DNA of 64,000 bases, from the NCBI RefSeq assembly GCF_900114455.1, contig NZ_FOTC01000002.1, positions 901,012-965,011 of the forward strand, written 5' to 3'. The notes under the pieces were generated by a model. The model saw nothing but the letters and a program-made list of their open reading frames with translations, had not been told where the DNA came from and did no database searches. Shown here piece by piece: positions 16,277 to 18,555 of this stretch. The translations under genes were made by a program, and so were the position numbers. Position 1 is the stretch's first letter, and each line of letters opens with the position of its first letter. Source of the stretch: Halogranum rubrum. GTDB lineage: Archaea > Halobacteriota > Halobacteria > Halobacteriales > Haloferacaceae.

Positions 16277-16348
16277 GACGTCGTCAGAAGCTTTACTGGC
16301 ATCTACGGGCGTAGATTCGCCGTGGACCCCGACCGAATCCTTTTTGGT

Positions 16349-16364
16349 TTTAGGCATACCTAAA
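16349..16364. promoter_or_regulatory. DtxR/SirR-type palindromic operator
   Basis: TTTAGG, spacer CATA, CCTAAA forms a perfect 6-bp inverted repeat ending eight bases before ATG 16372, thus over the likely transcription start. It matches the second site at 17945 in half-sites and in spacer length. It resembles the TTAGG...CCTAA sites of metal-responsive DtxR/IdeR-family regulators. Confidence 0.65.
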
Positions 16365-16371
16365 CTCAGTA

Positions 16372-16539
16372 ATGGCAGTGACTCCGCGGCCCGACGCGAC
16401 AGAAACGTTCGACGAGGAATCTGAGGACGCTCCCGATATCTCTGTCTGCGAGAGCACACCCGGAACGTCAGTGTTCACGGAAGCTGGCAACTCTGACGGA
16501 TGGATTGCGACGGATTTCGTCGTCGAACCCTGGGAATAA
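16372..16539 (+). CDS. Small acidic protein ahead of the DtxR-like gene
   Basis: A 55-residue acidic protein with one cysteine and the C-terminal pattern VFTEAGNSDGWIATDFVVEPWE. Several short haloarchaeal families end in a comparable GWIA-type strand, but I cannot name this one. The DtxR-type operator sits immediately before its ATG, so it is probably repressed or induced by metal status. The DtxR-like gene begins 36 bases after its stop codon and shares the direction, so the two are likely co-transcribed. Confidence 0.62.
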   Translation: MAVTPRPDATETFDEESEDAPDISVCESTPGTSVFTEAGNSDGWIATDFVVEPWE

Positions 16540-16575
16540 CTGGGTGAGAGTGCCGCACTCGACGCTCGACTGACG

Positions 16576-16929
16576 ATGGGGCAAATTCCGCGATATCTCG
16601 TCGCGATTAGCGAACTCGAACGATGTCACGGCAGTCCCGTCCCTACCGGCAGCGTCGCAACCGAACTCGGACGCTCGCCGTCGACGACGACAGAGATGAT
16701 TCAGCGGTTGGAGAACGAAGGACTCGTGGTGTACGAACGCTACGCCGGCGTCTCGTTGACGCCGGAGGGAGAACGAAAAGCCGCGGAACTCACGCACACT
16801 TTCGAGACGCTGTGTACATTTTGTCGCGATATTCTTCAGTTGGAGGACTACGAGGCAGAGGCGATGCGTTTGACCGGAAGCGTCAGTCCGGTCGTCGCCG
16901 ATCGACTCGAAGCGACGTTGTTGGAGTAG
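16576..16929 (+). CDS. DtxR-family-like winged-helix regulator with altered metal sites
   Basis: A 117-residue regulator whose first 65 residues match DtxR/SirR/IdeR: a recognition-helix region RSPSTTTEMIQRLENEGLV and the wing YERYAGVSLTPEGERKA. The following dimerisation segment keeps the family spacing but not the ligands. Where DtxR has HRLLERFL and ACRxEH, this protein has TFETLCTFC and AMRLTG. It gains a Cys80-x2-Cys83 pair and ends without the SH3/FeoA-like domain. It therefore may not sense iron or manganese by the classical site, and thiol or redox sensing is an inference. The operator before the upstream small gene suggests autoregulation. The dpsA gene converges on it. Confidence 0.75.
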   Translation: MGQIPRYLVAISELERCHGSPVPTGSVATELGRSPSTTTEMIQRLENEGLVVYERYAGVSLTPEGERKAAELTHTFETLCTFCRDILQLEDYEAEAMRLTGSVSPVVADRLEATLLE

Positions 16930-16938
16930 CGTCGCCGC

Positions 16939-17487
16939 TTAGTGCGTCGCTTCTTCGAGGACGAGCGTGTCGTCTTCGAGGTAGTGTTCGATGTGGTGTG
17001 CGTACTCTTCGAGTTCGAGGAGGTGGTGACGAAGCATCTCGGCGCTGGCGTGGTCACCGAGATTCGTCGTCAGTTCGATGTGCTCACGGACGGTTTCGAT
17101 GATGTCTCCGTACATCTCCATGTCGTTGGCCAGCGACGTGCGGACGTCGTAGACGTCGTTGTCCTCGGGGGTGACGGGTGCCGTCTCTTCGAGCGTCTTC
17201 ATCCCTGAGAGCGGGACGCCACCGAGCGCCTGCGCGCGCTCTGCGAGTTCGTCCGCTGCCTCTTCGGCCTCGTGGGCGGCCTCTCCGAGGAACTTGTGGA
17301 GTTCGAGGAACTCCGCTCCCTCGACGTTCCAGTGATGCTTCTTCAACTGGTGGTAGAGGACGTACGTCGCCGCGAGGTCGATGTTCAGTGCTTCGACGAT
17401 CTGCTCTGCTTTCCCCTGCTCGATACGGAGTGCGGGACTCGCTTCGACGGTGCCTGCCTGCTGACGAACGATTTCCTGTTTACTCAT
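16939..17487 (-). CDS. dpsA: DNA-protecting ferritin-like protein DpsA
   Basis: Dps/ferritin-like protein of 182 residues that oxidises and stores iron and protects DNA from peroxide. The Dps ferroxidase segment is seen in YHQLKKHHWNVEGAEFLELH (residues 45-65) and AADELAERAQALGGVPL near residue 80. A His-rich C-terminus (EEYAHHIEHYLEDD) is typical of halobacterial DpsA. ATG 17487 is preferred to the adjacent GTG one codon upstream. It ends nine bases from the DtxR-like gene in convergent orientation. An AT-rich TTATATAC at 17493-17500 (minus strand) lies too close to the start to be a normal TATA box. Confidence 0.93.
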   Translation of the reverse strand: MSKQEIVRQQAGTVEASPALRIEQGKAEQIVEALNIDLAATYVLYHQLKKHHWNVEGAEFLELHKFLGEAAHEAEEAADELAERAQALGGVPLSGMKTLEETAPVTPEDNDVYDVRTSLANDMEMYGDIIETVREHIELTTNLGDHASAEMLRHHLLELEEYAHHIEHYLEDDTLVLEEATH

Positions 17488-17731
17488 CACTTGTATATAA
17501 TGAGTCCCTCCCTCTTAGAACTTTGCAATCTACAAACAATTTTTCGTGCGACCTAAACCTCATGATTTGCTGCGTACGATACTCGTGAGGACGAGTCGAT
17601 AGGTTCGTTCACGCGAGCGGTGTGATTTCTGTCACATCTGAGGCAGGGCCAGTCGTCGACGCGTTCGGTCTCTCTCGCCGTGTCAGCTCCGACGCAGATA
17701 CAGCTAATACTGGTTGAGTGAGTGACCAGAC

Positions 17732-17890
17732 ATGGCCGAACCGAACGTGACGGTCGACCTGGAAGTAGAGGTCGAAGTCGACTCCGAAGAGCTCGAATTC
17801 GAGACGAGCGGAAAACACGAAGCCGAAGCCGAACTGGTCGTCGACGGTCTCACCATCGAAGTCGAAGTGGAGATTACGGTCGACGAGTGA
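17732..17890 (+). CDS. Highly acidic beta-repeat mini-protein
   Basis: A 52-residue protein made of alternating acidic and hydrophobic residues: VTVDLEVEVEVDSEELEFE, then AEAELVVDGLTIEVEVEITVDE. The pattern suggests edge-to-edge beta-strands, as in an amphipathic beta-sheet. There are no cysteines. About 40 percent of residues are Glu or Asp. I do not recognise a family. It sits between dpsA and the Rieske gene, both implicated in iron handling, so a metal- or protein-binding role is conceivable. No upstream DtxR-type site is seen. Confidence 0.55.
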   Translation: MAEPNVTVDLEVEVEVDSEELEFETSGKHEAEAELVVDGLTIEVEVEITVDE

Positions 17891-17944
17891 GGCGGCCCCT
17901 CGGCCGCTCGGCCGAGTGCTCGCACGAACCGACAACAACTTATT

Positions 17945-17960
17945 TTTAGGCCCACCTAAG
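17945..17960. promoter_or_regulatory. Second DtxR/SirR-type operator
   Basis: TTTAGG, spacer CCCA, CCTAAG: the same half-sites and four-base spacer as the site at 16349, with one mismatch at the outer base. It ends ten bases before the Rieske ATG at 17971 and overlaps the AT-rich core promoter TTATTTTTAGG. Confidence 0.6.
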
Positions 17961-17970
17961 AGTAGCAGCC

Positions 17971-18555
17971 ATGGACGACCCCGTTCGAGTGACGGTCGAA
18001 TCCAACGACGAAGAGCGAACTGTCCGTATCCACGACGACGAGGGTGAACTCAGCGTCGGCGACGCGACGTTTCGGTTCGACGTGACTGGTGTTCGTACGC
18101 GAAGCGCAGACGACGAGACGCACGAGACGCCAGACGAGACTGACGCCAACGGTGAGAGTGTCGATGCTGGGGACGACGAAGACGCAACAGCCGACCCACA
18201 CTACCTCGCAGCGGTCGACGACATCCCGGAACGCGGGACGCTCCGGTTCGAGGCACGGACGGGCCGATACGGTGTCGAGGGTATTCTCCAGCGAACCGAC
18301 GAGGGCGTACTCGCGTGGGAGAACGCCTGTCCGCACGAACCGGACGTCAAACTGGACAAGGGGTTCGGTGCGCTCGTCAACGGCGGCCAACTCGTCTGTC
18401 ACAAACACGGCGCGCGGTTCAACTGCGACGACGGGTTCTGCACGCGTGGGCCGTGTCGCGGGTCGGTGCTGGACGCAATCGGCGTGGAGGTGCGCGACGA
18501 CGAGGTGTACCTCGACGACGAGCGATTCGAGGCAGGCTACGCTCTCGATGGCTAG
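17971..18555 (+). CDS. Rieske [2Fe-2S] ferredoxin-like protein
   Basis: A 194-residue soluble Rieske protein for electron transfer. The cluster ligands are Cys120-Pro-His122 in ENACPHEPD and Cys143-His-Lys-His146 in LVCHKHGARF, with the normal spacing. Further cysteines follow in NCDDGFCTRGPC (residues 151-162). The first 75 residues are an unusual N-terminal extension: a small beta-rich domain and a Glu/Asp-rich linker. No membrane anchor or oxygenase domain is present, so it is not a bc1 subunit. A DtxR-type operator overlaps its promoter, suggesting control by metal status. The electron partner is unknown. Confidence 0.88.
   Translation: MDDPVRVTVESNDEERTVRIHDDEGELSVGDATFRFDVTGVRTRSADDETHETPDETDANGESVDAGDDEDATADPHYLAAVDDIPERGTLRFEARTGRYGVEGILQRTDEGVLAWENACPHEPDVKLDKGFGALVNGGQLVCHKHGARFNCDDGFCTRGPCRGSVLDAIGVEVRDDEVYLDDERFEAGYALDG

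Follow-up and report, generated by a model that had tools for sequence, protein, structure and literature searches.

Results

Two DtxR-type boxes precede genes of an iron-storage and Rieske locus

The genes described here lie in a 64,000-nucleotide stretch of the Halogranum rubrum genome (the window, in whose coordinates all features are given). A box of the DtxR/IdeR type, TTTAGG-CATA-CCTAAA (TTTAGGCATACCTAAA; 16349..16364, unstranded), lies upstream of an operon that codes for a 55-amino-acid protein of a conserved haloarchaeal family with a weak match to DUF7331 (16372..16539, + strand) and for a short DtxR-like regulator of the Idr type (117 amino acids; 16576..16929, + strand), which has lost its metal ligands and contains Cys80-x2-Cys83. 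Convergent with the regulator gene is dpsA (16939..17490, - strand), encoding a DpsA ferritin-like iron-storage protein (NF041388); its longest frame begins with GTG, and the ATG at 17487 is the more likely start. Further downstream are a gene for a 52-amino-acid acidic protein with a very weak amphi-Trp-like match (17732..17890, + strand), whose place next to the Rieske gene is conserved, a second box of the same type, TTTAGG-CCCA-CCTAAG (TTTAGGCCCACCTAAG; 17945..17960, unstranded), and the gene for a Rieske [2Fe-2S] protein (PF00355; 17971..18555, + strand) with the CPH ... CHKH ligands present in its sequence. A short acidic protein adjoins this Rieske gene in other genera too (L175-L179). 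The gene order bears out the first-pass annotation of this DNA, which had placed the DtxR-like gene in an operon with the 55-residue protein next to dpsA, and both the dpsA and the Rieske assignments are real.

Both window boxes are perfect TTAGG-N4-CCTAA repeats, and they were found where they had been reported, with the same spacer length and 8-10 bases before the starts of the small protein/regulator operon and of the Rieske gene. The first follows a T-rich TATA-like stretch (CCTTTTTGG) and precedes the operon's ATG at 16372, from which its CCTAA core is separated by 8 bases, and the DUF7331 genes of other haloarchaea have the same box geometry. The second lies 10 bases before the Rieske ATG at 17971 and overlaps the end of the TATA-like sequence TTATTTTT; among five close Rieske orthologues the box has one mismatch in four, and it is perfect in the congener G074. 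A third element, absent from the earlier account, is a variant box (TTTAGGTCGCACGAA; 17543..17557, - strand) at about -56 to -70 from the dpsA ATG, and this is conserved in orthologous dpsA promoters. When the dpsA promoters of the window and of L144-L173 are compared, the variant boxes lie upstream of the TATA region and read TTAGGYNNNACGAA next to Idr genes and TTTTGG-N4-CCAAAA-like elsewhere.

The 55-amino-acid family has the motif P-[DE]-x-S-V-C-E-x2-P-G-x-S-V-F-x-E-x-G-N-[ST]-D-G-W-I. Its SVCE...GN[ST]DGWI core is strongly conserved between the window protein and those encoded at L038:5276-5443, L214:1870-2037 and L258:11125-11292, and a perfect box usually stands a few bases ahead of each gene of this family. 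In G074 the locus is syntenic (L219 compared with window positions 16277-16938), but the box-DUF7331-Idr cassette of about 660 bp is absent, which suggests that it was inserted or lost as a unit. In both G074 and a second congener, G075, DUF7331 genes at other sites are preceded, at about 8 bp from their start, by a perfect box.

The boxes recur in promoters throughout the genome and the order

A genome-wide search for the motif, as the first-pass annotation had advised, gave 16 exact sites for TTAGGNNNNCCTAA in the 4.57-Mb genome and none in the reversed control, and all of the sites examined were within promoter regions. The boxed genes encode siderophore-type binding proteins (Peripla_BP_2, PF01497), a class-III aminotransferase, an FAD oxidoreductase and DUF7522, and a further boxed operon encodes a solute-binding protein and parts of an ABC transporter. 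L213 (G000:C6:1335457), probably a ferric-iron uptake operon, has one perfect box in front of its reversibly-glycosylated-polypeptide-like gene, behind which lie genes for a solute-binding protein and an ABC transporter. The IdeR protein of Saccharopolyspora binds the 14-bp element TTAGGNNNNCCTAA as a single dimer, and the authors of that work proposed it as a redefined consensus (PMC8464063). The window boxes match this 14-bp single-dimer form.

Every one of the 44 good-quality genomes that were sampled from the order has boxes; 12 of them encode the short DtxR and 32 do not. The mean number of boxes was 16.8 in genomes with the short protein and 8.9 in those without, a roughly twofold excess that would fit the short protein also acting on boxes, with phylogeny and the boxes of its own operon as confounding factors. 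Close pairs of boxes (at named loci L038-L089, for example L048, L054 and L061, and at L001, L011 and L212 of the H. rubrum genome) were spaced by exactly 36 bp in 33 of 41 cases. These 36-bp pairs bracket a CCGAAA BRE and a TTTAAT-like TATA element, and a leaderless ATG follows a few nucleotides past the second box.

A chance origin of the boxes is ruled out by the order-wide occurrence, by the reversed control, which leaves no room for the random frequency against which the first-pass annotation had guarded, and by dinucleotide shuffles of the window, none of which reached the observed number of matches. We conclude that comparison of these sequences supports the boxes as genuine DtxR-type operators of an iron regulon.

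The window regulator belongs to a family that has lost the DtxR metal ligands

The window regulator was matched by the winged-helix N-terminal domain profile PF01325 (E=1.3e-11; 44.9 bits against a cut-off of 26), and the metal-binding and dimerisation domain profile PF02742 gave 20.9 bits, below its cut-off of 27. Alignment with canonical DtxR places Phe76 at His79, Cys80 at Glu83, Met97 at Cys102, Thr100 at Glu105 and Gly101 at His106, so that by its sequence the protein is a DtxR homologue and not a metal-dependent DtxR. The earlier reading, that the DNA-reading half is kept and the ligands are replaced by Phe, Cys, Met and Thr-Gly, is correct by this alignment. Structure prediction, which had also been proposed, returned a DtxR fold without the metal ligands over the full length of the protein (pLDDT 94.7), and the model superposes on DtxR, IdeR and MntR at TM scores of mostly 0.8-0.86.

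The loss is not peculiar to H. rubrum. None of 53 aligned short proteins has retained His79 or Glu83, and Met97, Ala100 and Gly101 are found in 49, 48 and 49 rows, respectively. BLAST and alignment gave 91 sequences including a few TroR-like outliers, hence about 85 orthologues, spread across many families; ligand loss is common to these and many residues are invariant. We therefore regard the loss as real biology, and local decay as its source is ruled out. The literature that we searched, to which the main TroR/Idr papers did not belong, contained no statement that Idr lacks metal ligands.

The Cys80-x2-Cys83 pair is present in the window protein as described, and from it the first-pass annotation had drawn a thiol- or Fe-S-sensing regulator. 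In its full form this reading has both operators bound chiefly by the window protein, which would sense through these cysteines and control itself, the 55-amino-acid protein and the Rieske protein. It can point to the replacement of the ligand Glu83 by Cys80, to redox-linked neighbours (dpsA and the Rieske gene), and to the recurrence of the pair in an orthologue from another genus (G082), which is 52% identical and has the same operon order, box-DUF7331-regulator-dpsA. However, these are the only two of about 85 orthologues that have both cysteines, most having Ser and Phe there, so that the pair is ruled out as a family feature and general thiol or Fe-S sensing through it is unlikely. Two cysteines per subunit, both on one helix, would moreover need the help of a second subunit to hold an Fe-S cluster, and boxes exist in genomes where the window protein was not found. 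Taken as a whole, the reading is improbable; a lineage-specific use of Cys80 and Cys83 is possible. Within the short family the window copy has the longest branch.

DtxR homologues of the order fall into three types

In a profile search of 59 genomes of the order, DtxR homologues fell into three score tiers: the short type (180-210 bits), found in 12 genomes, a near-universal middle type of 140-160 amino acids (about 85-119 bits), and a third type of 225-250 amino acids (about 50-85 bits). The short proteins form a clade with support of 100/98. The congeners G074 and G075 gave no short type in a single-sequence search (E<=1e-22), which a divergent copy could escape, and G074 is 11% contaminated. 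This patchy occurrence, the missing copies in the two congeners and the lost metal site are what would be expected if the short protein were a decaying pseudo-regulator with neither a DNA nor a signal function. We think that there is very little chance of this, as about 85 orthologues across many families share many invariant residues and an intact predicted fold, and the promoter boxes and neighbouring genes are likewise conserved.

The middle type could be tied to TroR of Haloferax volcanii (HVO_0863) through the primer for the upstream flank of that gene, taken from PMC6801745. The forward primer matches exactly just before a ferritin-like gene and a 150-amino-acid DtxR gene in three Haloferax genomes; the reverse primer was not found in these three, so the mapping of TroR to the near-universal middle type rests on the forward primer. 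The TroR clade has support of 99/97, and the H. rubrum copy lies at G000:C8:455662-456015 (L017:1492-1926). Four cysteines are common to all 26 distinct TroR-type proteins, namely Cys77 and those of a CPxCF-x6-9-C motif close to the C-terminus, and all 26 have lost His79 and His106. As judged from the sequences, the four cysteines likely form a Cys-based metal or Fe-S site.

In G063, one of the three Haloferax genomes with the primer match, TroR is separated from the SirR type by about 41 kb and from the short type by about 361 kb, and both the side and, roughly, the distances agree with the numbers HVO_0819 and HVO_0538. Two boxes with 36-bp spacing precede the short gene there; after it come a DUF7331 gene with a box and, in convergent orientation, dpsA with a variant box. 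Among the four DtxR genes of H. larsenii boxes are found only at the short one. The window protein falls into the same clade as the Haloferax protein and shares its DUF7331, dpsA and box synteny. Synteny and elimination point to the window protein as the orthologue of Haloferax Idr (HVO_0538), the HVO number being assigned from distance and gene order and not from annotation.

Two observations were made alongside this survey. A contig filed as a Salinivenus MAG (L046) encodes a haloarchaeal Idr locus and is probably misbinned. In addition, two bacterial MAGs (L090 and L093) code for DtxR proteins in which the Glu-His ligand pair is partly lost, with a TTCGG-N4-CCGAA palindrome just upstream.

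The near-universal TroR type is the best-supported candidate reader of the boxes

The first-pass annotation had suggested the window protein as the possible regulator of both operators. As main reader it is not supported, because boxes occur in all 32 good genomes that lack it, and boxes at the Rieske, dpsA and DUF7331 genes persist in relatives in which no Idr was found. In G031 and G055, both without the short DtxR, a variant box is kept in the dpsA promoter of the former, and the Rieske orthologue of the latter has its box in place with one mismatch. Both window operators are thus independent of the window protein. Promoter boxes kept independently of Idr would be expected of a TroR regulon, and on these comparisons the near-universal TroR-type paralogue is the best-supported candidate for the main box reader and the probable main iron regulator. 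The earlier account had allowed that the operators might be bound only by another DtxR paralogue; a paralogue does appear to be the better candidate, whereas exclusive binding is a matter that goes beyond sequence.

We also considered reading of the boxes by canonical paralogues of the SirR/MntR type (L018 or L021 type), which are widespread and keep both the metal ligands and the DtxR fold. Their recognition helix differs, however (T-P-P-T-V-T-S-M, compared with the S-P-A-x-x-[TN]-E-M common to the Idr and TroR types), and their own neighbourhoods are boxless and look manganese-related. Four small f2 genomes gave no TroR-type match and had no boxes, and three of these four have a SirR-sized paralogue (225-250 amino acids). 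SirR-type proteins are accordingly disfavoured as box readers, and we regard this explanation as unlikely.

Discussion

We consider it probable that the locus is an Idr-dpsA iron island, with TroR as main reader and Idr as a metal-blind feedback component on the same boxes. In iron-replete cells TroR would sit on boxes between the TATA element and the start codon and repress the DUF7331-Idr operon and the Rieske gene, as it would the siderophore and ferric-iron uptake genes. The variant box of dpsA lies ahead of the TATA region, and through it the same network would activate iron storage. When iron runs short the promoters would open and Idr would be made, and Idr would then most likely bind the same boxes in metal-free form and modulate TroR control as feedback, as either competitor or co-repressor. 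We infer this promoter logic from box position: each of the two window boxes is present once, on the downstream side, and this would suit a repressor that blocks the core promoter; the dpsA box upstream of the TATA region fits activation. A study of H. volcanii TroR reportedly describes it as the main iron regulator, which represses idr and induces iron storage.

The action of Idr itself is the least certain step. An intact predicted fold, a TroR-like recognition helix and the absence of a metal site make metal-independent binding to the same boxes the most likely behaviour, as judged from the sequence and the structural model. One of the two feedback roles open to Idr in the island model is that of a metal-independent antagonist, which would be induced by iron starvation, occupy the boxes in its apo form, keep TroR off and so give switch-like derepression. 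Conserved ligand loss with an intact fold and a shared recognition helix would suit such a role, as would the boxes that stand over idr at most of the 54 named loci and the greater number of boxes in genomes with Idr. This support is only indirect, however, a protein on the core promoter would normally repress rather than derepress, and a co-repressor or heterodimer role fits equally well; the antagonist is possible but on balance doubtful.

The result shifts the focus from one odd protein to a network, and to how haloarchaea sense iron with two of their main DtxR proteins lacking the classical metal site. The order also gains a set of concrete candidate operators, the Rieske box and the variant dpsA box among them, together with a promoter rule in which boxes bracket the BRE/TATA element. 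We tentatively suggest, at somewhat less than even chances, that the Idr family is a permanently metal-blind modulator sharing operators with a four-cysteine TroR, so that the iron sensing of the order rests on a non-canonical pair, one member probably Cys-based (Fe-S or Fe-thiolate) and the other ligand-free.

Most of this belongs to a known system, of which the locus is a new member: the TroR/Idr/SirR iron network of H. volcanii. What stands out is the metal-blind Idr family, and two further leads are the placing of the Rieske gene in the regulon and a TroR with four cysteines. Like the window protein, H. volcanii Idr (HVO_0538) is a short DtxR without a C-terminal domain, near DUF7331 and dpsA and under TTAGG-N4-CCTAA boxes. 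The window protein shares about 50% identity with the putative Haloferax Idr (G063:C11) and differs in its extra Cys80 and in operon order, box-DUF7331-regulator as against regulator-box-DUF7331 in Haloferax. TroR (HVO_0863), the primary iron regulator of H. volcanii, is of the same superfamily with a similar recognition helix, has also lost His79 and is likely a reader of the same boxes. Unlike the window protein, it keeps the equivalents of Glu83 and Glu105, has four conserved cysteines (77, 121, 124 and 132), is near-universal and adjoins suf and ferritin-like genes.

Outside the haloarchaea, actinobacterial DtxR and IdeR resemble the window system in fold (TM about 0.8-0.86) and in the 14-bp box TTAGGNNNNCCTAA, but the SH3-like domain and the two metal sites of those proteins have no counterpart in the window protein. 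MntR of Bacillus and DR2539 of Deinococcus, which are among the best structural matches, are two-domain proteins of similar length without the SH3-like domain, as the window protein also appears to be; unlike it, both have kept their manganese ligands.
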